Source of the DNA: Deltaproteobacteria bacterium | GTDB lineage: Bacteria > Myxococcota > JACPTQ01 | Assembly (NCBI GenBank): GCA_016192705.1 | Contig: JACPTQ010000017.1 | Span: forward strand, 1 to 64,000 | DNA length: 64,000 nt | Direction: 5' to 3' | Shown here: positions 35,452 to 60,609 of the stretch, in pieces | How the letters are laid out: each line of letters begins with the position of its first letter | Position numbering within the stretch: position 1 is the first letter of the stretch | Translations under genes and position numbers: made by a program | Notes under the pieces: generated by a model | The model's database searches: none | Told to the model about the DNA's origin: nothing | Seen by the model: the letters and a program-made list of their open reading frames with translations, nothing else

Positions 35452-36001
35452 CCCCTCGATCCCCGGATAGGCGGCCAGTTCGCTTCTGTGCGTGAGGGTC
35501 GGCAGGTGCCGCTCCGGCGCGCCGACGTCCTCGGGTCTGAACTCACTCGCGCGACATAGCCGCTGCTCAAAGGCAAGCGAAATTTTGGCGATCCCATCCC
35601 ATTTTGCGCTGCAGACCCTGCGGAGGCGCGCCTATGCGAGCCCCTGCCGACCCTACGCGAGTCCGGGCGGACCGCTTCCGGAGACGTTTTTTCTGGGTTT
35701 GAGGGCGGTTCGAAGAGTTCACCCGCCGGGTGTCGGCTAACGATCGATCGACCCGCAAGTCTCTTAACCGCCGTTCCAGGAAAACGGCCGGGTTCTGATT
35801 GGGCGGACGGGGATTGGGCTTGCTCCGGATCGCGTCCGCAGGGGATGAGGTGCCGATGGGGCGTGGGATTGCCGTTCTCGTGATGTTTGATTTATTTCGT
35901 GCAGACTTACAGTTCATGTCAGACCCGAGGACTTCCGCGAGCCGGAGCAAGCCCAAACCCGACCGCCCCACGCTGGTCTTGGTCGTTAACCCGGAACCAC
36001 G
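35452..36001 (+). mobile_element. MITE-like element, copy 2
   Basis: About 550 bp, flanked by the direct repeat GGTTGTACA (35443-35451 and 36002-36010; identity continues into CCCC). The inverted inner ends GTCCTCGGGTCTGA (from about 35529) and TCAGACCCGAGGAC (from about 35918), and the outer ATCCCCGG/TTAACCCGG ends, match copies 1 and 3. It sits in the last codons of the glycosyltransferase gene to its right: removing it restores the ending GVQPR-stop, whereas the present gene ends GVQPVVPG-stop with the stop supplied by the element. Confidence 0.88.
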
Positions 36002-41559: not shown

Positions 41560-42110
41560 CCCAATCCCCGGTTAAGCGATTCGTTCGCTCGTGAGCGTGA
41601 GGGTCGACAGGAGCCCGCTTCGGCGCGCCGACGTCCTCGGGTCTGATTTGAGACGGGCGAACGGTCCACGGTTCAGAGGCTCGCGAAAGCTCGGTGGTCC
41701 CAGCCGTTATCGCGCTGCAGACCCTGCGGAAGCGCGCCTCTGCGGCGCCCCTGCCGACCCCACGCAAATCAGGGTGGACCGCTTTCCGGAGACGTATTTT
41801 CTGGGCTTGAGGGCGGTAAGAAGATATCACCCGCTGGGTGTCGGCTGACGATCGAGCGACCCCCAAATCTCGTAACCGCCGTTCCAGGGAAACGGCCGGG
41901 TTCTGACTGGGCGGACGGGGATTGGGGACGCAAAGGCTCGCATCCGCAGGGGATGAGGTGCCGATGGGGCGTGGATTTGCCGTTCTCATGATGTTTGATT
42001 CGTTTCGTGCAGACTCACATTTCATGTCAGACCCGAGGACTTTTGCGAGCCGGAGCGATCCCAAACCCGACCGCCCCATTCTGATCTTGGCGGTTAACCG
42101 AGAATCAAGA
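41560..42110 (+). mobile_element. MITE-like element, copy 3
   Basis: About 550 bp flanked by the direct repeat ATAGCAAAGC (41550-41559 and 42111-42120). It starts CCCAATCCCCGGTTAAGC and ends with an imperfect inverted counterpart (GGTTAACCGAGAATCA). The inner inverted pair is GTCCTCGGGTCTGA/TCAGACCCGAGGAC. The left repeat overlaps the start codon of the sugar-binding protein gene, so insertion was at its 5' edge. The other end lies about 50 bp from the coaX start. Confidence 0.88.
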
Positions 42111-42935: not shown

Positions 42936-42974
42936 GTCGCGTATCAAATCGAACCACGCGCGGCCCATCGTTCC

Positions 42975-43002
42975 CTGCCTCGGGAAGCGCGGTCCCGGGC
43001 AG
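42975..43002. terminator. Hairpin downstream of coaX
   Basis: CTGCCTCGGGA and TCCCGGGCAG pair with one bulged T across a 7-base loop. There is no T-run after it, so an intrinsic terminator is only possible. Confidence 0.4.
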
Positions 43003-43117: not shown

Positions 43118-43133
43118 TGGCACCGGCATTGCT
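43118..43133 (+). promoter_or_regulatory. Sigma-54 (-24/-12) promoter of the gas vesicle operon
   Basis: TGGCACCGGCATTGCT matches the RpoN consensus TGGCAC-N5-TTGCW exactly, with GG and GC ten bases apart. Transcription would start near 43144, giving a leader of about 46 bases before gvpA. It is the only promoter-like element seen in the 254-bp gap after coaX. Confidence 0.85.
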
Positions 43134-43189
43134 CTCTCGTTCTGCTGGCCGCCGAGACGCGGCCGGGGAACCTGAAGGAGGTGAAAGAG

Positions 43190-43411
43190 ATGGCTAAGAT
43201 CATGAAATCGACAGATTCGTCGAGTCTGGCGGAGGTCGTGGATCGAATCCTCGACAAGGGAATCGTTATCGATGCGTGGGCCAAGGTGTCATTGGTCGGC
43301 ATCGAGCTCCTTTCGGTGGAAGCCCGCGTCGTGGTTGCGTCGGTCGAGACGTACCTGAAGTACGCCGAGGCGATCGGATTGACGGCAACAGCAGCCGCAC
43401 CGACCGCGTAA
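43190..43411 (+). CDS. gvpA: Gas vesicle major structural protein GvpA
   Basis: 73 aa. The core [54 protein letters not shown] region (split here across the helix-beta-beta-helix fold) is diagnostic of GvpA, the ribbed shell subunit of gas vesicles; key segments are [13 protein letters not shown] and [16 protein letters not shown]. The tail is short and Ala-rich. AAGGAGGTGA precedes the ATG at ideal spacing, as expected for a highly made protein. First gene of the forward cluster, behind a sigma-54 promoter and followed by a strong hairpin. Confidence 0.97.
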
Positions 43412-43431
43412 GGACGAGGGACTTCGCGTTG

Positions 43432-43470
43432 CCTGCCCGGGAGCGGCTTTCGGGTCGCCTCTCGGGCAGG
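43432..43470 (+). terminator. Strong hairpin after gvpA (attenuator or mRNA stabiliser)
   Basis: CCTGCCCGGGAG (43432-43443) pairs with CTCTCGGGCAGG (43459-43470) over 12 bp with one G-U pair, around a 15-base loop. There is no T-run. It lies between gvpA and the next gene, where it could protect a gvpA message or reduce read-through, keeping GvpA in excess over later proteins. Confidence 0.6.
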
Positions 43471-43500
43471 ACCGCGTCGATGAGAGAAGGAGAGGTAACC

Positions 43501-43971
43501 ATGGACCTACATTTCACGAGCTTCAACGCCGAATGGGCCCGCGCGTTTCGACGAGACCTCACGGCGGGCCTTCAGCAGCGTCGCGATTTTCTGAACAAGA
43601 TGCGAAATCATACGTTTGCGTTTTTGGCGAGCGCGGCTCGGGAGCGACGCGAGGCGGCAAACGATTTCCGGCAACGGGCGCACCGGGAGTCGGAGGGTCG
43701 GCATTTGTTCAGAAGTGAGCTGCGGTCGGATGTTCACGCACTCCGCAGCCGGTTCGCGTTCGGTCTTCAGCAGATGGCCAAGGAGCTTCAGGCGACGTCG
43801 GAGGCTTTCCGTGGCGCATCTCGTGGTGGAGGCGGAGCGTCGTTTCGCAGGAATACGGGGGGAGCCGCGCATTCGGCGTCGAGTCAAATGGACGACACCG
43901 AATTCACAGCGACGTACGACGGTCGCGACGCGGTGTCGGGGTCGCGGCATTCGAAGAAACGCCACAGCTAA
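43501..43971 (+). CDS. Candidate GvpC-like gas vesicle shell protein
   Basis: 156 aa, very Arg/Ala/Gln-rich and helical, not matching any gvp family I can name with certainty. Two helical segments look related: FRRDLTAGLQQRRDFLNKMR and FRSELRSDVHALRSRF, with FAFGLQQMAKEL after it. A Gly/Ser/Arg-rich tail follows. Position directly after gvpA, the amphipathic repeat character, and lack of membrane segments suit a GvpC-type protein that binds the outside of the vesicle and strengthens it. GvpC is poorly conserved between phyla. The start has GGAGAGG upstream. The function is inferred from context only. Confidence 0.6.
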   Translation: MDLHFTSFNAEWARAFRRDLTAGLQQRRDFLNKMRNHTFAFLASAARERREAANDFRQRAHRESEGRHLFRSELRSDVHALRSRFAFGLQQMAKELQATSEAFRGASRGGGGASFRRNTGGAAHSASSQMDDTEFTATYDGRDAVSGSRHSKKRHS

Positions 43972-43989: not shown

Positions 43990-45021
43990 ATGGCGAATGG
44001 AAACGGGTGTGGTCTCGCGGCCGTCGACGAGGCCTCGAGCGGCTTGGCCAGTGCTTCGGAGCTAGCGGCGGTCAGCGTCGAGGCGGGTGACTGCTTCGTT
44101 GCGACGCCCGAGGTCCGCCGTTTGGCGGAGCGGGCGCTCGTCTATCTAAACGCCGGCTACCCCGTTCACTTTTCCGGCCCGGCCGGAACGGGAAAGACGA
44201 CGCTCGCCCTCCACGTCGCGGCTCTTCGAGGCCGCCCCGTCAGCCTCATGCATGGCGACGACGAGTTTGGCTCGAGCGACCTCGTGGGCGGCGAGTACGG
44301 CTACCGAAAATCGAAGCTCGTCGACAACTTCATCCACTCGGTGCTTCGAACCGAAGAGACGATGAACACGCTGTGGGCCGACAACCGACTCACCTTGGCG
44401 TGTAAGACTGGCGACACGCTTGTGTACGACGAGTTCACGCGGTCGCGTCCCGAGGCGAACAACGCGCTCCTTTCGGTGCTCGAGGAACGGCTCTTGACGG
44501 TGCCGACGCGCCGCGGGGGTGACGGGTTTCTCGAAGTGCACCCCGAGTTTCGCGCCATCTTCACGTCGAACCCCGAGGAGTACGCCGGCGTCCACCGAAC
44601 GCAGGACGCGCTCGTCGATCGATTCATCACGATCCGCATCGAGCATTACGACCGCGAAACCGAGGTCGAGATCACGCGCGCCAAGGGGGGCATCGGGCGC
44701 GACGAAGCGGAGGTCATCGTGGACATCGTTCGCGACCTCAGGCGAATGCGGGTGTCGAAGCAAGGGCCGAGCCTTCGTGCGAGCATCATGATCGGTCGCG
44801 TCATGAGTCAGGAGGGCGCGCACCCACGGCAGGGCGATGCGTTTTTTGGCGAGATTTGCCGCGACGTTCTCGGAGGTCTCACGGCCAAGATCACGCGGGA
44901 CGGCGAGCGCGGGATCACGTCGACCGTCGATGAAGTTGTCGCCAAGCACTTGAAGGAAGAGCGGCGGGACAAGAAGCGTCGGCCGTTTAGCGAGGTCGCG
45001 GTTGCGAGAAAGGGGGGTTAA
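43990..45021 (+). CDS. gvpN: Gas vesicle AAA ATPase GvpN
   Basis: 343-aa MoxR/CbbQ-like AAA ATPase. Walker A HFSGPAGTGKTTLALHVA and Walker B DTLVYDEFTRSRPEANNALLSVLEE (core VYDEFTR) are present, with NPEEYAGVHRTQDALVDRF typical of GvpN. It is needed for gas vesicle growth or assembly in several species. The start ATG has GGGAGGG upstream. The unusual length of N-terminal extension (about 35 residues) and a charged C-terminal tail are minor variations. Confidence 0.95.
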   Translation: MANGNGCGLAAVDEASSGLASASELAAVSVEAGDCFVATPEVRRLAERALVYLNAGYPVHFSGPAGTGKTTLALHVAALRGRPVSLMHGDDEFGSSDLVGGEYGYRKSKLVDNFIHSVLRTEETMNTLWADNRLTLACKTGDTLVYDEFTRSRPEANNALLSVLEERLLTVPTRRGGDGFLEVHPEFRAIFTSNPEEYAGVHRTQDALVDRFITIRIEHYDRETEVEITRAKGGIGRDEAEVIVDIVRDLRRMRVSKQGPSLRASIMIGRVMSQEGAHPRQGDAFFGEICRDVLGGLTAKITRDGERGITSTVDEVVAKHLKEERRDKKRRPFSEVAVARKGG

Positions 45022-45026
45022 GGGCG

Positions 45027-45347
45027 ATGGCGGTTCCAGTTCGCGGAATTCAAGACGTCAAGACGCTCGGGTTCTTGCGGGGAAGCGGCGCCCACGGAAA
45101 GGACCAGCACGTCTTCCTGTTTCGGCTCGCGACGCTCGAGCTTGAGCGGACGCGCCGGTTGCGTGAACGAGAGGCGGCCGTGAAGCGGATGAACGCGGTC
45201 GATGCGCGGCTTGTGGAGGTTGAGCGGTTGATCCAGAACCAGCAAGAGGCGCTTGGTGTCACGCGAAATCGTGCACAGGCCGGCAACGCCGCGCGTGCTC
45301 TGGCCACCGCCGGTCGAGCGCGTCGCGTGCTCCGGTACGGGAGGTGA
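45027..45347 (+). CDS. Small coiled-coil protein in gas vesicle operon
   Basis: 106 aa. The N-terminal VRGIQDVKTLGFLRG is followed by a long charged helix (LELERTRRLREREAAVKRMNA, VERLIQNQQEALGV) and a basic tail. AAGGGGGG before the ATG and a 5-bp gap after gvpN mean it is cotranscribed. No family is recognised. It may act as an accessory or adaptor protein for vesicle assembly; that is inferred from context. Confidence 0.7.
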   Translation: MAVPVRGIQDVKTLGFLRGSGAHGKDQHVFLFRLATLELERTRRLREREAAVKRMNAVDARLVEVERLIQNQQEALGVTRNRAQAGNAARALATAGRARRVLRYGR

Positions 45348-45354
45348 CGGCGTC

Positions 45355-45573
45355 GTGCGAATTAAGCTGAACTGCCTTTCGTGTGGGCACACGATGGAAC
45401 TCAGCGAAGCGTATGAGGACTTCGAGGGCGAGGTGCGGTGCTGGGGCTGCCAATCGTCGCTTGAGGTTGTGCTTCACGAAGGCAAGCTTCGATCGATTCG
45501 CAGAATCTCCAGCGAAGCGAATGGGGCGTCGTCCCGTCGGGGCGAGGCGCGCGTAAACGAAGAAGAAAGGTGA
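45355..45573 (+). CDS. Small zinc-ribbon protein in gas vesicle operon
   Basis: 72 aa, GTG start chosen because GGGAGGTGA lies upstream. CLSCGHTMELSEAYEDFEG followed by VRCWGC gives two CxxC knuckles about 21 residues apart, a rubredoxin/zinc-ribbon-like pattern. The C-terminus is basic. It sits between the coiled-coil gene and gvpF/L with short gaps. Not one of the classical gvp letters; role unknown. Confidence 0.75.
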   Translation: MRIKLNCLSCGHTMELSEAYEDFEGEVRCWGCQSSLEVVLHEGKLRSIRRISSEANGASSRRGEARVNEEER

Positions 45574-45576
45574 GCG

Positions 45577-46341
45577 ATGCCACGTGAAGGGCGCTATCTC
45601 TACGGACTCGCCCGGACGGACAAGGATCTCGATTTCGGGGCGATCGGGCTTGAGTTCGCGGGTGCGCCGGGCCGCGTCCACACCGTGCGCGTCGATTCGG
45701 TCGCCGCGGTCGTCAGCCCATTTGCGGGCACCGACAAGGTGATGCCACTTCGAAAAAACCTCGAACCGCACCACCGCGTGATCCGTGAGGTGATGAAGAC
45801 CGTGACGATTGCGCCGCTCGCGTTTGGTCATGTGGCGAAGAGCGAAGACGCCGTGCTGAGCACGCTTCGGCGAAACCGCGACAACATTCGGGACGGGCTC
45901 GATCGCGTGGACGGCATGGTCGAACTGTCGCTCAAAGTGAAATGGGACGTCGACAACATTTTCGAGTACTTCGTCGGACTCGATTCGGATCTCGCGGCGT
46001 ATCGCGATGAAATCTTTGGTCGCGCGTATGCGCCCGGGCAGCCCGAGAAGCTGGAACTCGGGCGAATGTTTGAACAGCGGCTGACCCACGAGCGCGAAGT
46101 CGACACCGATCGCGTCGTCGAGGCGTTTGGGCCGGCCTGCAGCGACGTCAAGGTCAATCCGCCGAAGAACGAAAAGAGCGTCATGGATCTTGCGTTTCTC
46201 GTGCCGCGCGACGGCGTCGCCGCGTTCGAGGAATGCTTGTCGGAGGTCGCGTCGGGGTTTCCGGCGCAGTACACGTTTGATTTCGGCGGCCCGTGGGCGC
46301 CATTCAACTTCGTCGAGATCGACCTTCGTCAGGTCGAGTGA
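45577..46341 (+). CDS. gvpF: Gas vesicle protein GvpF/GvpL family
   Basis: 254 aa with the GvpF/L pattern: the N-terminal RYLYGLAR, VVSPFAG, the central VTIAPLAFGHVAKSEDAVLSTL, and the C-terminal DFGGPWAPFNFVEIDL. GvpF/L proteins are minor assembly factors that bind GvpA; GvpF has a two-domain structure. Two more members are encoded at 58462 and 59152 on the other strand. Which is F and which L cannot be decided from sequence alone. The ATG follows an AAAGGTGAG site. Confidence 0.92.
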   Translation: MPREGRYLYGLARTDKDLDFGAIGLEFAGAPGRVHTVRVDSVAAVVSPFAGTDKVMPLRKNLEPHHRVIREVMKTVTIAPLAFGHVAKSEDAVLSTLRRNRDNIRDGLDRVDGMVELSLKVKWDVDNIFEYFVGLDSDLAAYRDEIFGRAYAPGQPEKLELGRMFEQRLTHEREVDTDRVVEAFGPACSDVKVNPPKNEKSVMDLAFLVPRDGVAAFEECLSEVASGFPAQYTFDFGGPWAPFNFVEIDLRQVE

Positions 46342-46350
46342 GGTGGAGAC

Positions 46351-46581
46351 GTGGGGCTTTTGAGAGGACTGTTAACGGTGTTTGAGAAAGTCGCCGCTGA
46401 GGCCGACGCGGAGATGTTCAACGAGGACGCGGTCCGCGCTGAGCTCACGGATCTGTATTTCAAGTTGGAGGCCGGGGCGGTGAGTGAGGAGGAGTTTGCG
46501 CGACGCGAGGCGGAGCTGGTTTTGCGGCTCGAGGAGATCGAGAGGCGCGGGCGGCAACGGGGGCGACATGGACGGAGCTAG
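46351..46581 (+). CDS. gvpG: Gas vesicle protein GvpG
   Basis: 76 aa, GTG start. MGLLRGLLTVFEKVAAEADAE and the following acidic helix (LTDLYFKLEAGAVSEEEFARRE) match GvpG, a minor accessory protein needed early in gas vesicle assembly. Its 3' end overlaps the next gene by 14 bp. The neighbours gvpF and a gvpA paralogue are in the usual order for bacterial clusters. Confidence 0.9.
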   Translation: MGLLRGLLTVFEKVAAEADAEMFNEDAVRAELTDLYFKLEAGAVSEEEFARREAELVLRLEEIERRGRQRGRHGRS

Positions 46582-46873
46582 CGGGAAAAGAGTTTTTGTC
46601 AGGAAGGCAAGAAGGCAGAAATCAGTTCTGGCGCTTTCGCGGCAGCGGCGGGTCAGCCTTTGCGAGACGCTCGACCGTGTGCTCAACAAGGGCGCGGTGG
46701 TCGCGGGCGACGTCATCATCTCGGTTGCGGGCATTGACCTCGTTTATGTTGGGGTCAACCTCGTCGTTGCCTCGCACGACACGATGCGGGCGTGGTCGGA
46801 AGCGGGCGCGGAAGCGGGCGCGGGAGCGGGCGCGGATGCGGAAGCGGGAGCGGGAGCGGGAGCGGGGGCATAG
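46568..46873 (+). CDS. GvpA-family paralogue (GvpJ/M-type) with repeat-encoded tail
   Basis: 101 aa. SLCETLDRVLNKGAVVAGDV and IDLVYVGVNLVVASHDTM form a GvpA-like core of about 55 residues, preceded by a basic N-terminus. The last 25 residues (EAGAEAGAGAG and so on) come entirely from a GCGGAAGCGGGCGCGG tract. Minor GvpA homologues J and M nucleate vesicles; this one may be either. Overlaps gvpG and ends three bases before gvpK. The ATG is preceded by a weak GGGGGCG site. Confidence 0.85.
   Translation: MDGASGKRVFVRKARRQKSVLALSRQRRVSLCETLDRVLNKGAVVAGDVIISVAGIDLVYVGVNLVVASHDTMRAWSEAGAEAGAGAGADAEAGAGAGAGA
46793..46870. repeat. GCGGNN tract forming the tail of the GvpA paralogue
   Basis: About 78 bp of GCGGAAGCGG/GCGGGAGCGG units at the gene end, extending its C-terminus with Ala, Gly and Glu. 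The same tract type occurs throughout the window. Confidence 0.8.
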
Positions 46874-46876
46874 ACG

Positions 46877-47275
46877 ATGCGTGTGTGTGACGTTCGCGGT
46901 CGGCCGAGTGACTTTGAAGCGTTCGCTGAAACGAACGACGTGCCGAAACCGAAGTTGCCGCGACGCGTGAATCTCGAGCCCGAGAAGGTTGAAGAGGGGC
47001 TCGTGAAACTTGTTTTATCGCTCGTCGAGCTGATTCGCCAGCTGATGGAAAAACAGGCGCTTCGGCGCATCGAGAGCGGGAGCCTTTCGGTCGACGAGGT
47101 CGAGCGGCTTGGGACGGCGCTCGCGCGGCTCGAACAGAAAATGATCGAGCTTAAGGCGCACTTCAAAATCGACAGCCTCAACATCGATCTCGGCCCACTG
47201 GGAAATCTCTTCGATGAGGTGAACCAACATGGAACGAACACAACCAAAAGTTATTCACGCAACCAACACGAGTAA
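46877..47275 (+). CDS. gvpK: Gas vesicle protein GvpK
   Basis: 132 aa. The core RVNLEPEKVEEGLVKLVLSL and LIRQLMEKQALRRIESGSL, followed by EVERLGTALARLEQKMIELK, is typical of GvpK, a minor accessory protein needed for proper vesicle formation. The C-terminus extends past the usual end and overlaps the next gene by 47 bp, so the last 15 residues (GTNTTKSYSRNQHE) are not conserved GvpK sequence. Confidence 0.93.
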   Translation: MRVCDVRGRPSDFEAFAETNDVPKPKLPRRVNLEPEKVEEGLVKLVLSLVELIRQLMEKQALRRIESGSLSVDEVERLGTALARLEQKMIELKAHFKIDSLNIDLGPLGNLFDEVNQHGTNTTKSYSRNQHE

Positions 47276-47576
47276 CCTCGCTGATATCCTCGAGCGGGTT
47301 CTCGATAAGGGGATCGTCATCACCGGCGATATCAAGGTGAAGTTGGTCGACATCGAGCTTTTGTCGATCCAGATTCGGTTGCTTGTCTGCTCGGTCGACA
47401 AGGCGCGTGAGATGGGGATCGACTGGTGGCTGCGAAACCCAGACTTTTCGTCGACGGCGGTTCCGGTTCCAGCGAGCGTCAAGGCGGTGACTGAGGGCGG
47501 CGAGCGAGAAGAGTTGGCCGAATTGAAACGGCGGCTGGTTACGCTCGAGCAGAAGGCCGTCGTCGCACCGAGTTGA
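47229..47576 (+). CDS. gvpJ: GvpA-family paralogue, GvpJ-like
   Basis: 115 aa. NTSNLADILERVLDKGIVIT and KLVDIELLSIQIRLLVCSVDKAREMGIDWW (in two conserved blocks, GvpA-like core) resemble GvpJ, which carries longer tails than GvpA. The C-terminus has a helical stretch (REELAELKRRLVTLEQ). It is the last forward gvp gene before the NHL-repeat gene. It starts inside gvpK, coupling translation. Confidence 0.88.
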   Translation: MERTQPKVIHATNTSNLADILERVLDKGIVITGDIKVKLVDIELLSIQIRLLVCSVDKAREMGIDWWLRNPDFSSTAVPVPASVKAVTEGGEREELAELKRRLVTLEQKAVVAPS

Positions 47577-51262: not shown

Positions 51263-51613
51263 ATGCATCACTTCATCGCTTACGACGTCGCGTTTCAGCT
51301 CGCCGCTTCCGTTCGTCCCCTGCTTGATTCGCTTCGCCGCAAAGATCGCTCTCTCGAAGATCAGCTTCGACGCGCCATTGCGAGCATCGTGTTGAATATC
51401 AGTGAGGGTGATGGCAAATCCTCTCTCCGCGATCAAGCGCGGTTCTTTGAGATCGCGAGGGGAAGCTGTCGTGAAGCGCGTGCGGCTCTCCGGCTCGCGG
51501 CGATATGGGGATACATCGACGAGCTGACCGTCGCCGAAAACGACGCGATTGCGGATCGAGTTTGCGCTTTGCTCTCGCGCCTTATCGTACAAGCTTCGTT
51601 AACATCGCGATGA
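51263..51613 (+). CDS. Four-helix-bundle protein (23S rRNA IVP/S23 family)
   Basis: 116 aa. LEDQLRRAIASIVLNISEGDGK and the helix-rich remainder (ARFFEIARGSCREARAALRLAA) match the four-helix-bundle family found in rRNA intervening sequences and related to the Avd accessory protein of diversity-generating retroelements. A GGAGG site precedes the ATG. Preceded by a C-rich tract. Its 3' end overlaps a convergent paralogue by 32 bp. Not inside an rRNA here; molecular role unknown. Confidence 0.9.
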   Translation: MHHFIAYDVAFQLAASVRPLLDSLRRKDRSLEDQLRRAIASIVLNISEGDGKSSLRDQARFFEIARGSCREARAALRLAAIWGYIDELTVAENDAIADRVCALLSRLIVQASLTSR

Positions 51614-51938
51614 CGCGCGACAGCAACGAGCCGATGTCAGCGGGCGCGTCGTCAATGAGGTCAAGGAGCGCGGCTGACTCACACGCTTCGCCCCGCGCAA
51701 TCGCGTAACATCTGCGCTTATCGGCCTTCGCGACGCGCCCCGCGCCCTCGGCGACGTTCGTGAGAACCGAGAGCGACGCTCGGCGAAACTGATTACGCAA
51801 GACTTGATTCGCGATCGGGAGTCGCTGAGCGAGACGAGTGAAGTCTCGAGCCACGCGGTAGCAGTCGAGGCGCTCGAGGGACGAAGACGCGGAAACGATG
51901 GCGGTAGGGGTTGCGGTAGCGGTCGGCGGTTGCGGCAT
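51582..51938 (-). CDS. Four-helix-bundle protein (23S rRNA IVP/S23 family), second copy
   Basis: 118 aa, with LERLDCYRVARDFTRLAQRL, QFRRASLSVLTNVAEGAGRV and YAIARGEACESAALLDLI helices. The first 20 residues (MPQPPTATATPTAIVSASSS) are low-complexity, encoded by the GCGGTAGCGG tract. Convergent with the previous member; the pair is bracketed by inverted simple-sequence tracts. Divergent in sequence from the other two copies. Confidence 0.88.
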   Translation of the reverse strand: MPQPPTATATPTAIVSASSSLERLDCYRVARDFTRLAQRLPIANQVLRNQFRRASLSVLTNVAEGAGRVAKADKRRCYAIARGEACESAALLDLIDDAPADIGSLLSRVIAMLTKLVR

Positions 51939-52051: not shown

Positions 52052-53197
52052 CTAGCGCTTGCTGCCCCGTCGGTCGAGCGGCAGTGTCAGCGTAAACCGC
52101 ACCGCGTTTTCGATGTTCGCGGCGACGAGCTCACCGCCCTCTTCCCTTGCGATCTGCCGCGACAAAAAAAGTCCGAGGCCAGTTCCATGGGCCTTCGTCG
52201 TATAGAACGGCCGAAACAGGCATTTAAGCGCATCCGCCGCAATGGGGGGGCCGTCGTTTTCGATGTCGACGATCGCCCGTTCGGTCGCGACCTCCAAGCG
52301 CGTGCGAACGCGCAGAATGCCGCCGTGGTGCGCGAGAGCATCGAACGCGTTTTTGACCAGGTTGAGAAGAATCTGCTTCACGCCGTCCACGTCCTGGTGC
52401 ATGAGCGGCAAAGAATCGTCGAAGGACGTTTGGACTTCGATCCCGCGTTCCCGGCACTCGGACGCGGTGAAGCGGAGCACGTCGCCAACGATGTCCTTCA
52501 GATTCGCGAGCTCGCGGTGGGGCGTTCTCGTCACCGTGAAGTCGACGGTGCGCCGCAAAAGAACATGCATTCGCTGAACGTTCTCGAGCGCGGTCGCCGT
52601 GAAGTTCGCAGCGCCGTCTTTGTTCTCGACGAAGCGCTTATGCAAATGCTGGAGGCTCGAACCGATGATGGTGAGCGGATTACCAAGTTCGTGGGCGATG
52701 ACCGCCATGAAGCGACTGATGCTCGCGAGCTTCTCCATTTGAGCGCGCGGGACTCTGACCACGTCGTCAGAGACTTGCGCCGTATTCGTGTGCAACGCGC
52801 CATCGGCTTTGAGCGCCCGCTCGACGGTTTCAACCATGACGTCGTTCTGGAACGGCTTATCCAAGTACGCAAAGAAGCCCTGCTCGAGCGCGAGCCGTCG
52901 GAGAGCGTCATTCCCATACGAGGTCATGATCACCGAACGCAGTTTCGGCAGTCGCGCGCTCATCTCGCCCATAAGCGCAAGACCGGTTGAATCGGGAAGG
53001 CGGTAGTCGACCACCGCGACCTCGCAGTCGAAGCCAGCCGCAATCGCGCGGAGGGCGCCGGCCGCCGTGTGCGCCGTTTGGACGACATGACCGCGCTCCA
53101 TCAGGATTTCGGCGAGGAGCCAACACATATGCTCCTGGTCGTCGACGACAAGAATTCGGCCGCGGGGCGTTCCTTCAGCTTCTTGGGACCGCGGCAT
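52052..53197 (-). CDS. Receiver-histidine kinase hybrid, likely gas vesicle regulator
   Basis: 381 aa with a reversed layout: N-terminal receiver (ILVVDDQEHMCWLLA; acceptor Asp in VVDYRLPDSTG), then a HisKA box with MAVIAHELGNPLTIIGSSLQ, then a HATPase (LLNLVKNAFDAL, HGTGLGLFLSRQ). No membrane segment, so a cytoplasmic relay. Its start overlaps the NtrC-type gene upstream by 23 bp. It is the last gene of a five-gene reverse operon and the probable partner of that regulator. Signal unknown. Confidence 0.92.
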   Translation of the reverse strand: MPRSQEAEGTPRGRILVVDDQEHMCWLLAEILMERGHVVQTAHTAAGALRAIAAGFDCEVAVVDYRLPDSTGLALMGEMSARLPKLRSVIMTSYGNDALRRLALEQGFFAYLDKPFQNDVMVETVERALKADGALHTNTAQVSDDVVRVPRAQMEKLASISRFMAVIAHELGNPLTIIGSSLQHLHKRFVENKDGAANFTATALENVQRMHVLLRRTVDFTVTRTPHRELANLKDIVGDVLRFTASECRERGIEVQTSFDDSLPLMHQDVDGVKQILLNLVKNAFDALAHHGGILRVRTRLEVATERAIVDIENDGPPIAADALKCLFRPFYTTKAHGTGLGLFLSRQIAREEGGELVAANIENAVRFTLTLPLDRRGSKR

Positions 53198-54599
53198 GGG
53201 ACGCCACCTCGAACCCGTGGTGTCGGAGCTTTAGGCGCAACGTTTTGGGATCCACCCCGAGGCGCTTCGCCAACTGCGCACCGCTCGTTTGTTTCTGATG
53301 AAGGAGGTGCTGCAAGAGCAAACGCTCGGCCGTCTCGGCGGCTTTGGCGCCCAGCGCCTTCAAATCGAACGACGCCGAGCCAAGGTCGACTTCGAATTCA
53401 ATCTTGAGCCGATCGGTGTCGCCGGCTCCTTTCGAGACGGCCCCTTCCAGAGCGCCTTCAACGCTGTCCGCAGAAATCTCCTTCGGCAGGTGCTCGGGAC
53501 AAACGACATCGTCCGCGAGTACGACGGCGGACTTTATGGTGCTTTCGAGCTCGCGAACGTTTCCTGGCCACTTGTAAGCCTCGAGCTTTTCGATCGCCGC
53601 TCCCGATAGTTTGCGGGCTTTTGCCCGGAACTCCCGCGCGTAGCGATGAAGGAAGTGCTCGGCAACGAGTCGAATGTCGCCGTTCCGTTCGCGAAGCGGC
53701 GGCAAGTTGATCGTCATCTCCTGGAGTCGGTAAAAAAGGTCTCGCCGAAACTTACCGTTTTGGATCGCCTCGGGCAGGTCAATGTTCGTCGCCGAGATCA
53801 CGCGAACGTCGAGGTGGACCTCCTCGCGGCTCCCGACGCGCTGCATCGTTCGCTCCTGAAGCAATCGCAGGAGTTTTGTTTGGTACAGCATCGGGAGGTT
53901 CCCGATTTCGTCGAGAAAGAGCGTCCCGCCTTGCGCGAGTTCGAGCCGTCCGATCCGCGACGCCACGGCGCCCGTGAACGACCCCTTTTCAAACCCAAAG
54001 AGCTCACTTTCGATGAGGCTCTCGGGGAGCATGGCGCAATCGACGACGACGAACGGTCCGCCCTGGCGTTTGCTCGCGGTGTGAATCGCGCGCGCGAACA
54101 GCTCCTTCCCGGTTCCTGTTTCGCCAAGGAGCAGCATGTTGACTTCGGGCACCGCGAACTTGAGAGCGAGCGCGTGGGTCTCGCGAAACGCGACGCTTTC
54201 GCCCACAAGCACCGGAGCTTCGCGCAGCCTGTCGCAGTGAAACGCGAGAAGGGTATCGACCGATGCGAGCAGCGCTTCGTTGTCAAACGGTTTGCTGATG
54301 AAATCGGTCGCGCCCGCCTTGATGGCCCGGACGGCGGCCCGAATGTCCCCGAACGCGGTGATCATAACGACCGGTGTCTCGGGCGCGTTCTTTCGTAAGC
54401 GGTGCAGCGTCTCGATTCCATCGAAGCCCGCCAAGTTGAGGTCGAGAAGAACGAGGTCGGGCGGGCTTTCCCGCGCGACTTTGATCGCCGCGTCATGGCC
54501 GTGAGCACAATCGGCGGTGTGCCCGCGCTCGTTCAGCAGCGCGGTGAGGAGGTTACAGAGCGCCTCTTCGTCATCAACGATCAAGATGTGCGCCATCAA
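53175..54599 (-). CDS. NtrC-family sigma-54-dependent activator, candidate gas vesicle regulator
   Basis: 474 aa. Receiver domain (ILIVDDEEALCNLL; acceptor Asp in LLDLNLAGFDG), AAA+ with Walker A LLGETGTGKELFARAIH, the sigma-54 contact loop reading GSFTGA instead of GAFTGA, Walker B TLFLDEIGNLP, and a C-terminal Fis-type helix-turn-helix (QLAKRLGVDPKTLRLKLRHH). Ser at this loop position occurs in some functional activators. The ATG overlaps the Cdc48-like gene stop (ATGA). The only sigma-54 promoters noted nearby are those of gvpA and the Hsp20 operon, which makes it their likely activator. Confidence 0.93.
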   Translation of the reverse strand: MMAHILIVDDEEALCNLLTALLNERGHTADCAHGHDAAIKVARESPPDLVLLDLNLAGFDGIETLHRLRKNAPETPVVMITAFGDIRAAVRAIKAGATDFISKPFDNEALLASVDTLLAFHCDRLREAPVLVGESVAFRETHALALKFAVPEVNMLLLGETGTGKELFARAIHTASKRQGGPFVVVDCAMLPESLIESELFGFEKGSFTGAVASRIGRLELAQGGTLFLDEIGNLPMLYQTKLLRLLQERTMQRVGSREEVHLDVRVISATNIDLPEAIQNGKFRRDLFYRLQEMTINLPPLRERNGDIRLVAEHFLHRYAREFRAKARKLSGAAIEKLEAYKWPGNVRELESTIKSAVVLADDVVCPEHLPKEISADSVEGALEGAVSKGAGDTDRLKIEFEVDLGSASFDLKALGAKAAETAERLLLQHLLHQKQTSGAQLAKRLGVDPKTLRLKLRHHGFEVASHAAVPRS

Positions 54600-56809
54600 A
54601 ATTCCTTTCTTGACTGGTTCATCTTAACCCTCTTGTCGGCATCTGGCACACGGGAATCCGCGCCCTGCACCTCCTGGATCGCCGCGACGATTCGTTGTCG
54701 CGTGATTTTGAGCCGCGCGGGATCCGCATCCGGGTGCGCTTCGATGAAATCGCGAACGGTGAGTAGCGCCGCTCGTCGACAAACCGTCTCGATGTCCGCG
54801 CCCGTTAGCCCTTCCGAACGCTTTGAAAGCTCCGCGATATCAACATCGTTCGCAACGGGTTTCCCCTTGAGATGGACTTTAAGAATCTGCGCGCGCCCGT
54901 CGCCATCCGGCGGTGGTACTTCGAGCAACAGATCAAAACGCCCCGGCCGAAGGAGCGCCGGGTCGAGCCGATCCTTTCGGTTGGTCGCCGCGATCACGAG
55001 GACGCCCTTCAACTCCTCGACGCCATCCATCTCGGTTAGGAGTTGGCTGATCACGCGCTCGGAGACGCCTGAATCGTGACTCGAGACGCTTCTGATCGGG
55101 GCGAGCGCGTCGATTTCGTCGAAAAAGACGATGCACGGCGCGGCCTGGCGGGCCTTCTTGAAAACTTCTCGCACGCCGCGTTCACTCTCGCCCACGAACT
55201 TTGAGAGAAGCGCTGGCCCCTTGACCGAGATGAAGTTGACGCCGCTTTGCGACGCGATGGCCTTCGCGAGCAGCGTCTTTCCGGTGCCGGGCCGCCCGTG
55301 GAGAAGAATTCCCTTCACGGCGCGCACGCCTGCGTGGCGAAGGAGGTTGTCGTACTTGAGCGGCCACTCGACGGCCTCGCGCAATTCGCGCTTGACGTCG
55401 TCGAGACCGCCCACTTGATCCCACGCGACGTCCGGCACTTCGACGAAAACCTCGCGAATCGCCGACGGCTCAACTTCGGCGAGCGCCGTGAGGAAATGCG
55501 CCATCGTCACTTTCAGCGAGAGGAGCAGCTCGTACGAAAGTTCGTGGCTCGCGAAGTCGATCTCGGGCATCACCGTGCGGAGCGTCGTCATCGCCGCCTC
55601 GCGACACAGCGCCTCGAGATCGGCGCCGACGAAGCCGTGCGTGATGGCCGATAGTTTTGCGATGTCGACGTCGTCCGCGAGCGGCATGCCGCGCGTGTGG
55701 ATGTCGAGAATCTCGCGGCGCGCGTTGGCGTCCGGGATGCCGATTTCGATTTCGCGGTCGAACCGGCCCGGGCGACGAAGCGCGGGGTCGAGGACGTTCG
55801 GCAGATTTGTGGCGCCGATGACGATCACTTGGCCGCGCGATTCGAGGCCATCCATGAGCGCGAGGAGTTGCGCGACGACGCGCTTTTCAACGTCGCCCTG
55901 AACGTTTTCGCGCTTGGGTGCGATGGCATCGAGCTCGTCGAGGAAGATGATACAGGGCGCGTTCTTGCTCGCTTGCTCGAAAATCCCGCGGAGCTTCGCT
56001 TCGCTCTCGCCGTAAAACTTGTGGATGACCTCGGGCCCGCTTACCGAGATGAACGCGGCCTCGGTTTCGTGTGCCACGGCGCGCGCGAGGAGGGTCTTGC
56101 CGGTTCCGGGTGGGCCGTGCAGGAGAACGCCTTTGGGCGCGTTGATTCCGAGGCGCTCGAAGATTTGCGGGAAGCGGAGCGGAAGCTCGACCATTTCGCG
56201 GACGCGGCGAATCTCTTTGCGAAGGCCGCCGATGTCCTCGTAGGCGATGCCGTCCGACCGCGTGGTCTTTTCGCCCTCCGATTCGATCGCGATCTTCGTT
56301 TGCGGGTGCACGACCACACAGCCCTCTTTCGGTTGCGTCGCGACGACCTGGAAGTCTTGCGTGCGCGAGCCGAACAGCATCGCGCGGACGCGATCACCCG
56401 CGCACAGGGGCAAACCTTCGAGGAGTCGCCCGACATAACGTGTGTCGTCCTCGGGGCTTCGTGCCGACAACGCGCCGACCGGTTGCAGCACAATCTTAAC
56501 CGCCGCAGCGTGGCTTGCTTTTTTAAGCGTGACGCGCTGGTCGAGACCCGACTTGGCGTTGCCGCGCGTGATGCCGTCGATCTGGACGATCCCCTTGCCG
56601 CGGTTCTCGGCGTACGCGGGCATCGCCTTCGAGACCGTTTTGCGCTCGCCGTCGATCGACACGATGTCTCCAACGTCGGCGCCGAGCCGCTCCAAATCTT
56701 TTGGGTCGAGGCGCGCGATTCCGCGCCCGACATCTTTGCCGAGAGCCTCCGCGACGCGCAGCGAAATGCCCGCGCCGCCCAGCGGGTTTTTTTTCGCTTC
56801 AGGCGCCAT
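54596..56809 (-). CDS. Cdc48/VAT-like double AAA+ ATPase
   Basis: 737 aa with an N-terminal double-psi-barrel-type substrate domain (about 1-190) and two AAA modules: D1 Walker A GPPGTGKTLLARAVA, Walker B CIIFLDELDAIAPK; D2 Walker A GRPGTGKTLLAKAIA (GRP instead of GPP), Walker B CIVFFDEIDALAPI. It closely follows the archaeal/eukaryal Cdc48/p97/VAT plan of protein unfolding. Such proteins are unusual in bacteria and some gas vesicle clusters carry them. Coupled by overlap to both neighbours. A role in vesicle assembly or disassembly is inferred from location. Confidence 0.93.
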   Translation of the reverse strand: MAPEAKKNPLGGAGISLRVAEALGKDVGRGIARLDPKDLERLGADVGDIVSIDGERKTVSKAMPAYAENRGKGIVQIDGITRGNAKSGLDQRVTLKKASHAAAVKIVLQPVGALSARSPEDDTRYVGRLLEGLPLCAGDRVRAMLFGSRTQDFQVVATQPKEGCVVVHPQTKIAIESEGEKTTRSDGIAYEDIGGLRKEIRRVREMVELPLRFPQIFERLGINAPKGVLLHGPPGTGKTLLARAVAHETEAAFISVSGPEVIHKFYGESEAKLRGIFEQASKNAPCIIFLDELDAIAPKRENVQGDVEKRVVAQLLALMDGLESRGQVIVIGATNLPNVLDPALRRPGRFDREIEIGIPDANARREILDIHTRGMPLADDVDIAKLSAITHGFVGADLEALCREAAMTTLRTVMPEIDFASHELSYELLLSLKVTMAHFLTALAEVEPSAIREVFVEVPDVAWDQVGGLDDVKRELREAVEWPLKYDNLLRHAGVRAVKGILLHGRPGTGKTLLAKAIASQSGVNFISVKGPALLSKFVGESERGVREVFKKARQAAPCIVFFDEIDALAPIRSVSSHDSGVSERVISQLLTEMDGVEELKGVLVIAATNRKDRLDPALLRPGRFDLLLEVPPPDGDGRAQILKVHLKGKPVANDVDIAELSKRSEGLTGADIETVCRRAALLTVRDFIEAHPDADPARLKITRQRIVAAIQEVQGADSRVPDADKRVKMNQSRKEF

Positions 56810-57458
56810 GCCCGCCCTCGTTGAACTTCCACCAGCGCTCCGCGCCGAGAGGAAGGCTGTGGATGAGATGCCGCTCGTCGAATTTGCCCGCGAGGATTTC
56901 GTCGACGCGGTGAAGGAGCCCGATGAAGAGAATGGCAGTCTCGCCGTCCAGAAGCGTTTTGTCGATGCGGTCCGCGATGAACGCGTCGCGCGCCTGCAGG
57001 AGTGCATCCCCCTCGCGCTTGAGCGACACGACCACCGCGTCGGGAGCCTGCCCCTCCGCGGCGAGCACGAGTTTTTGAACGCGGCGGTATTCAGCGACCA
57101 TCAGCGCGGGCTCCTCAGTCCCCATGAGCTTTGCGCCGCGCGCCATGAGCTCGACAAGAAGTTGGTGGTTTCGACTCGACTGCGACGCAAGGTCGCGGAC
57201 GATGTCCTCTTCTCGCCCGCACACCGGAAGCCCATCCTGGTAAAGGCGCGTCCGTTGCCAATCCAAGGGGAGGGCCAAAAGCTTCTCACGAAGTCCGACC
57301 CACATCGCTTCGATCGACGCCGCACGTCGCTCAGACGCATCGGCGCCAAACGCCGACCGGACTTGTCGCAGAACCTCGTCCGCGACACTCCCCAAGTCGA
57401 CCGCCGAGTGGACGACCGGCACATAGATCAGACTGCGCACGCATTCGCCCCGCGCCAC
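56799..57458 (-). CDS. Unknown protein in gas vesicle-linked regulatory operon
   Basis: 219 aa, soluble, helical. Conserved-looking segments: YVPVVHSAVDLGSVADEVL, YQDGLPVCGREEDIVRDLA, ELMARGAKLMGTE, and RDAFIADRIDKTLLDGETA followed by ILFIGLLHRVDE. No family or enzyme motif is recognised. Starts inside the receiver gene and ends inside the Cdc48-like gene, so it is tightly coupled to both. It could be an adaptor or sensor of the operon. Confidence 0.78.
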   Translation of the reverse strand: MARGECVRSLIYVPVVHSAVDLGSVADEVLRQVRSAFGADASERRAASIEAMWVGLREKLLALPLDWQRTRLYQDGLPVCGREEDIVRDLASQSSRNHQLLVELMARGAKLMGTEEPALMVAEYRRVQKLVLAAEGQAPDAVVVSLKREGDALLQARDAFIADRIDKTLLDGETAILFIGLLHRVDEILAGKFDERHLIHSLPLGAERWWKFNEGGHGA

Positions 57459-59151: not shown

Positions 59152-60018
59152 CTACCCTCCTTGCGCCCCGGCGGCATCGGGCGTCGAATCGTCCGCGTCG
59201 TCACAAAAACTGTAAGCCGCCCAAGGCCCCGTCAACTCGCAGTCGAGACCCTGTTCCACGACTTTCATTTTAATATCGGTCATCGCGTCCTTGAATGCTT
59301 CGCGCCCCGAAATGCTGACCAGCGCCGCGAGATTGAGAACCGGCGCTTCGGGGCGATCGGTCGCGGAGATCGGGTTGATGGGGCGGAGGCGCACGTCATC
59401 AGAGACTTGTTCGACGGCCTCGACGATCTGTTCGACAAGGGCGTCGAGGTGCGACGCGGCGAGCTCCAGAAGGCGCGCATCGCGTTGCCTTCGAAGGACG
59501 AACGCGTGCCCGGGGCTTGCGGCGGCGATGGCGGCGTCATCGTTTCGAACGTCCGGGTCGTTCACGGCAGCGGCCGATTGCAGCCGGTGCTCATCGCAAA
59601 ACACCTTGAGGCCCCACTCCTCGCGTCCCTTAAGGCGGCTCAAGGTCGCCAAGAACCGTTCTTGGTAGAGAGCGAGAGTGCGTTCGACCGCGTCGTCGCT
59701 GCTGAAGAGCGTGCAAAGGCGCGCGGGGATGACGGTGCCGTGGCGCATCGCTTGCTCGAGCACAGCTTTGTGTTTGCGCGCAATGACCGCGACCCATTCG
59801 ATCGACTTGAGGTTTTTCTCGAGCGCCGCGGGCGAGAAGTCGATCGCCGAGACCGGCTCGACAATCGCCTTGAGGGCTCCCTGCGATATTCCGAAGAGCG
59901 CGATGCCGGCGTCGCGCGGAAGCGCTTGGTCGACGGGAACGACACCGTAGAGGTACACGATCCGCTCGTCCGTTTCTGCTTCCACGCGTCCTCCCGTAGT
60001 TTGTTGACTGGACGACAC
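59152..60018 (-). CDS. gvpL: Gas vesicle protein GvpF/GvpL family
   Basis: 288 aa, GTG start. VYLYGVVP, IARKHKAVLEQAMRHGTVIP, RLCTLFSSDDAVERTL, WGLKVF and LTGPWAAYSFCDD give a clear GvpF/L pattern. Acidic tails at both ends. Located between an Hsp20 gene (12 bp upstream) and a second divergent family member. Minor structural or assembly role with GvpA expected. Confidence 0.9.
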   Translation of the reverse strand: MSSSQQTTGGRVEAETDERIVYLYGVVPVDQALPRDAGIALFGISQGALKAIVEPVSAIDFSPAALEKNLKSIEWVAVIARKHKAVLEQAMRHGTVIPARLCTLFSSDDAVERTLALYQERFLATLSRLKGREEWGLKVFCDEHRLQSAAAVNDPDVRNDDAAIAAASPGHAFVLRRQRDARLLELAASHLDALVEQIVEAVEQVSDDVRLRPINPISATDRPEAPVLNLAALVSISGREAFKDAMTDIKMKVVEQGLDCELTGPWAAYSFCDDADDSTPDAAGAQGG

Positions 60019-60593: not shown

Positions 60594-60609
60594 AGCAACG
60601 GTCGTGCCC
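60594..60609 (-). promoter_or_regulatory. Sigma-54 (-24/-12) promoter of Hsp20/GvpF operon
   Basis: On the minus strand GGGCACGACCGTTGCT differs from the consensus TGGCAC-N5-TTGCW in one base. The GG and GC elements have correct spacing, and the inferred start near 60583 leaves about 40 bases of leader before GTG 60542. The nearby gap to 60807 holds no gene. Confidence 0.75.

Follow-up and report, generated by a model that had tools for sequence, protein, structure and literature searches.

The gas vesicle operon of this Myxococcota-like genome (5.2 Mb in 88 contigs) is very probably transcribed from a genuine sigma-54 promoter at positions 43118-43133 of the window, the whole 64,000-nucleotide stretch of DNA analysed here. 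This sequence-based reading is well supported, since the site is kept in all relatives with near-identical GvpA, its occurrence is coupled to rpoN, and an NtrC-like activator is encoded in the same locus. The genome was placed in this phylum from its relatives and from matches to Anaeromyxobacter.

A putative -24/-12 promoter upstream of gvpA

Read directly on the plus strand, positions 43118-43133 (TGGCACCGGCATTGCT) consist of TGGCAC, the spacer CGGCA and TTGCT, exactly as the initial annotation had reported. The invariant GG (43119-43120) and GC (43131-43132) are 10 bp apart, which is the canonical spacing. The distance to the start codon, which the same annotation had called appropriate, is 56 bp from a well-supported ATG (43190): a strong ribosome-binding site (RBS; AAGGAGGTG, 43175-43183) lies upstream of it, and GvpA homologues share the N-terminal start MAK.. 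at this position. From the sigma-54 spacing, transcription is predicted to begin at approximately 43144. The window contains one exact match to TGGCACN5TTGCW, and this is the site before gvpA. Two near-consensus sigma-54-like sites with one mismatch each are found at 59741-59756 (plus strand) and 60594-60609 (minus strand). The locus contains the following features.

42971-42986, no strand assigned: candidate activator-binding dyad (UAS), TTCCCTGCCTCGGGAA, centred 140 bp upstream of the GG, tentative
43118-43133, plus: putative -24/-12 sigma-54 promoter of gvpA, TGGCAC-N5-TTGCT (sequence; kept in relatives)
43144-43189, plus: predicted 5' leader, about 46 nt, including the RBS (sequence and inference)
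43190-43411, plus: gvpA, main gas vesicle shell protein, 73 aa (PF00741)
43425-43475, plus: strong GC-rich hairpin directly 3' of gvpA, CCTGCCCGGGAG...CTCTCGGGCAGG (hairpins at the equivalent position in relatives)
43501-43971, plus: orf2, 156-aa protein in the gvpA-gvpN gap (homologues in Myxococcota genomes G165 and G098)
43990-45021, plus: gvpN-like AAA ATPase (AAA_5; 53-77% identity to genes in the gvpN position elsewhere)
45027-45347, plus: orf4, conserved gvp-cluster protein (comparison of gvp clusters)
45253-45573, plus: orf5, small conserved zinc-ribbon-like protein of gvp clusters; translation probably begins downstream of 45253
45577-46341, plus: gvpF/L (PF06386)
46351-46581, plus: gvpG (PF05120)
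46484-46873, plus: gvpA-family paralogue, gvpJ-like (PF00741)
46877-47275, plus: gvpK (PF05121)
47229-47576, plus: gvpA-family paralogue, gvpS-like (PF00741)
52052-53197, minus: receiver-histidine kinase fusion (Pfam)
53175-54599, minus: NtrC-like sigma-54 activator, predicted GvrA-type (receiver, AAA domain, Fis-like C-terminus)
54596-57007, minus: CDC48-family AAA ATPase, which usually accompanies the activator in gvp clusters

The operon runs in the order gvpA, orf2, gvpN, orf4, orf5, gvpF/L, gvpG, a gvpA-family gene, gvpK and a second gvpA-family gene. The product of orf2, which matches no Pfam or NCBIfam family, could be a GvpC-like stiffening protein. The hairpin following gvpA is possibly an attenuator or an mRNA stabiliser that sets the excess of GvpA; hairpins of differing sequence also follow gvpA in distant relatives (L124, L129, L133, L135, L017, L030, L032, L024, L025, L178). 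A dispersed repeat of about 430 bp, present in about 40 genome copies of 81-94% identity, occurs in the window at 41560-41990 and 35459-35882, one copy being about 1.2 kb upstream of gvpA. Two adjacent genes on opposite strands (51263-51613 and 51582-51938) belong to the 23S rRNA-intervening-sequence protein family.

Regulatory genes of the gvp locus

The host genome encodes one intact rpoN, whose RpoN box reads ARRTIAKYRE. The gvp genes are followed by a gene for an NHL-repeat protein, two small genes and a convergent operon encoding CDC48, the NtrC-like activator and the receiver-histidine kinase, which lies 9 kb from gvpA at the far end of the locus. The activator carries a GSFTGA loop, the Walker A sequence GETGTGKE and a C-terminus judged by eye to be Fis-like. 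In both G165 and Anaeromyxobacter the genes are arranged CDC48-HK-activator-RR-gvpA, HK-activator-RR lying immediately upstream of gvpA, and the window activator shares 55-61% full-length identity with these orthologues versus approximately 35-44% with most other activators. The two halves of the fusion protein match separate RR (54-57%) and HK (48-52%) genes adjoining gvpA in relatives; the window arrangement is a rearranged version with a fused receiver and kinase. Across phyla, gvp loci repeat the order activator-CDC48-gvpF-HK-RR-gvpA. The CDC48/p97-like ATPase, whose annotation suggests no clear part in gas vesicle biology, is near-constant in gvp clusters (L014, L016, L017, L020, L021, L023-L025, L027, L029, L030, L032, L040).

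Candidate UAS dyads are found about 90-146 bp upstream of the sigma-54 site in most relatives, their letters not being conserved one for one; they are no more than suggestive, such counts being inflated by the relatedness of the sequences and by the use of simple shuffles. In a 57-row tree, gvp-linked activators formed three supported clades on a backbone without resolution. The two or three independent origins hinted at by this tree were not upheld by a cleaner 34-row tree, which joins the Myxococcota and main activator clades with an SH-aLRT of 95 and for which one clade containing all three groups is not rejected (p-AU 0.5).

Since the genome encodes about 36 sigma-54 activators, another of them could serve the gvpA promoter, in which case the linked NtrC-like protein would act on other genes, such as its own CDC48 operon. 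The distance and convergent orientation of the linked operon would fit this scenario, as would genome G098 (L124-L126, G098:C39), which keeps the sigma-54 site and carries a divergent CDC48 gene beside its gvp operon, and whose best matches to the linked activator reach at most 40% full-length identity and include no orthologue. We nevertheless regard it as rather unlikely: gvp-linked activators recur beside gvpA across phyla, two of the clades that they form come together in the 34-row tree, the orthologous HK-activator-RR genes directly adjoin gvpA in G165 and Anaeromyxobacter, and GvrA is needed for full gvpA1 transcription in Serratia. The linked NtrC-like activator is, on these comparisons, the likely partner of the gvpA promoter.

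Position and conservation of the site

The motif alone is uninformative, because exact matches occur genome-wide at chance level (9, versus 12 for a reversed control pattern), and genome-wide enrichment was consequently dropped as support. In shuffled windows, the exact motif had a mean count of 0.04, with 4 of 100 shuffles containing at least one, and matches with up to two mismatches were at chance level in the window (20 observed, 18.75 expected). The significance of the site therefore rests on its position and conservation. By estimate from the genome-wide counts, an exact motif would fall by chance 40-100 bp before gvpA with a probability of about 6e-5.

Among 195 genomes of the phylum that were searched, 32 contained a GvpA-like match. 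All five Myxococcota genomes with near-identical GvpA (about 95% identity or more; G165, G098, G044, G045 and G046) keep the site at a similar gap of 50-56 bp, so that the conservation check in close relatives proposed in the initial annotation does not refute the promoter reading. A tie between the motif and the host phylum was rejected, since the site is absent in Myxococcota genomes whose GvpA is at most 80% identical. An alignment of ten Myxococcota gvpA upstream regions, not all independent because L033 is the same genome as G046, revealed TGGCA and TGC as conserved blocks with a free spacer, in surrounding DNA that could not be aligned.

We scanned 80 gvpA loci drawn from genome contigs with a weight matrix set from the sigma-54 consensus and left unfitted; many of these loci are MAG contigs, a few of which may be mis-binned, for example L015 ("Riflebacteria", GvpA 97% identical). 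Most Pseudomonadota and Thermodesulfobacteriota loci, and several loci of Acidobacteriota, Planctomycetota, Lentisphaerota, Spirochaetota and Ignavibacteriota, have a strong site 46-98 bp before gvpA; in Chromatiaceae it lies farther out, about 190-200 bp upstream. With a gap of 40-100 bp, a strong site precedes 22 of 53 non-cyanobacterial gvpA genes, whereas among the remaining ORF starts of these loci it precedes 4 of 767. Across the 50 genomes tested for rpoN, the motif is present in 23 of the 34 that carry the gene and in none of the 16 that lack it. Cyanobacterial GvpA is similar (75-85% identical), yet none of 25 cyanobacterial gvpA loci has a sigma-54-like site above threshold, and rpoN is missing from all 14 cyanobacterial genomes that were checked for it. 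The motif also tends to occur together with an activator encoded in the cluster (p = 9e-6 overall; p = 0.013 without Cyanobacteria). Plasmid clusters of Methylosinus and Methylocella have the site 73 and 80 bp before gvpA, respectively (TGGCTCCGTTCTTGCA in Methylocella tundrae), and shortly before gvpA their annotation lists a 'sigma-54 dependent transcriptional regulator', a sensor-kinase-like protein and a response regulator. Counter-examples are L039, L070 and L090, where a cluster activator is present and a strong canonical site is absent; neither such a site nor an annotated activator is present in the stretch shown of the Spartinivicinus (L179) and Octadecabacter (L180) plasmid clusters.

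The genome-wide counts and the two-mismatch matches in the window are what a chance resemblance would produce, in which case a housekeeping or other promoter would drive gvpA. Conservation at the same spacing in every close relative while the surrounding DNA has diverged, the enrichment before gvpA over other ORFs and the dependence on rpoN make this extremely improbable, and no sigma-70-like promoter was found upstream of gvpA. An open frame does run from an in-frame GTG (43064) through the site, but that the block is a constrained stretch within an extended gvpA frame, or the binding site of a factor other than sigma-54, is just as hard to credit, given the free spacer between TGGCA and TGC fixed at sigma-54 spacing, the RBS and shared MAK.. 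start at ATG 43190, and the tracking of rpoN.

Discussion

Sigma-54 control of gas vesicles, which we propose for the gvpA promoter described here, is already known in principle, because the case of Serratia sp. ATCC 39006 has been published. There, the gvpA1 start was mapped by 5'RACE with a consensus sigma-54 site upstream, the gene is controlled by the NtrC-family protein GvrA, with GvrB and GvrC also needed, and an operon starting with gvrA recurs in proteobacterial gvp clusters (PMC4982088). According to PMC11778176, which cites Hill 2021, a Serratia rpoN transposon mutant makes no gas vesicles. The statement in the initial annotation that gas vesicle genes are generally not described as RpoN-dependent therefore does not hold for Serratia (PMC4982088, PMC11778176), while it stands for Cyanobacteria, which lack both site and rpoN.

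The window resembles the Serratia gvpA1/gvrA-gvrC system in having a -12/-24 site before the first gvpA, a gene for an NtrC-family activator within the gvp locus and two operons, one structural and one regulatory; Serratia needs rpoN for gas vesicles, and the window genome encodes one intact RpoN. It differs in that the regulatory operon is convergent and at the far end, a single protein combines receiver and kinase, and the predicted GvrA-type activator falls on a separate Myxococcota branch. Clusters of Pseudomonadota, Thermodesulfobacteriota, Acidobacteriota and Planctomycetota (for example L017, L020, L030, L032, L040) likewise combine a strong sigma-54 site before gvpA with an activator and CDC48 in the cluster, followed by gvpN and gvpF/G/J/K/S. 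In contrast to the window, they are typically arranged in a single direction as activator-CDC48-gvpF-HK-RR-gvpA, and their activators belong to another clade in the 57-row tree, which joins the Myxococcota clade in the smaller one.

The site, its position and conservation, its coupling to rpoN and the activator and kinase genes in the locus constitute the sequence evidence, from which we infer a start site, an activator identity, a UAS, a phosphorelay and a signal. Sigma-54 RNA polymerase would wait in a closed complex at the gvpA promoter. The receiver/histidine-kinase protein (52052-53197) would sense a signal and phosphorylate the NtrC-like activator (53175-54599), which might then bind upstream of the promoter, perhaps at the dyad at 42971-42986. 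Its ATPase, through the GSFTGA loop, could open the closed complex, and the polymerase would start the gvpA-orf2-gvpN-...-gvpS operon from 43118-43133. Since opening would need the signal-driven activator, gas vesicle synthesis would be off unless the signal is present.

We lean, by a modest margin of belief, towards the view that sigma-54 with a cluster-borne GvrA-like activator is the common, possibly ancestral, form of gvp control in rpoN-bearing Gram-negative bacteria, which spread with the operon through at least seven phyla and to which Cyanobacteria are the exception. Gas vesicles go unmentioned in a survey of the sigma-54 regulon (PMC12316311). Our literature search, which covered sources other than subscription journals and theses, found no paper on gas vesicles in Anaeromyxobacter and no account of promoter conservation across phyla or of any Myxococcota case. 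What appears to be new here is a broader distribution of predicted sigma-54 gvpA sites, in unrelated bacteria, than we found described.

If this reading is true, gas vesicles in many uncultured bacteria would not be constitutive and would await a two-component signal relayed by an ATP-driven activator. This would provide a testable handle on the timing of flotation and would also explain why transplanted clusters may remain silent where the right activator is missing. A result from a single organism, Serratia, would thereby become a general rule with clear exceptions.
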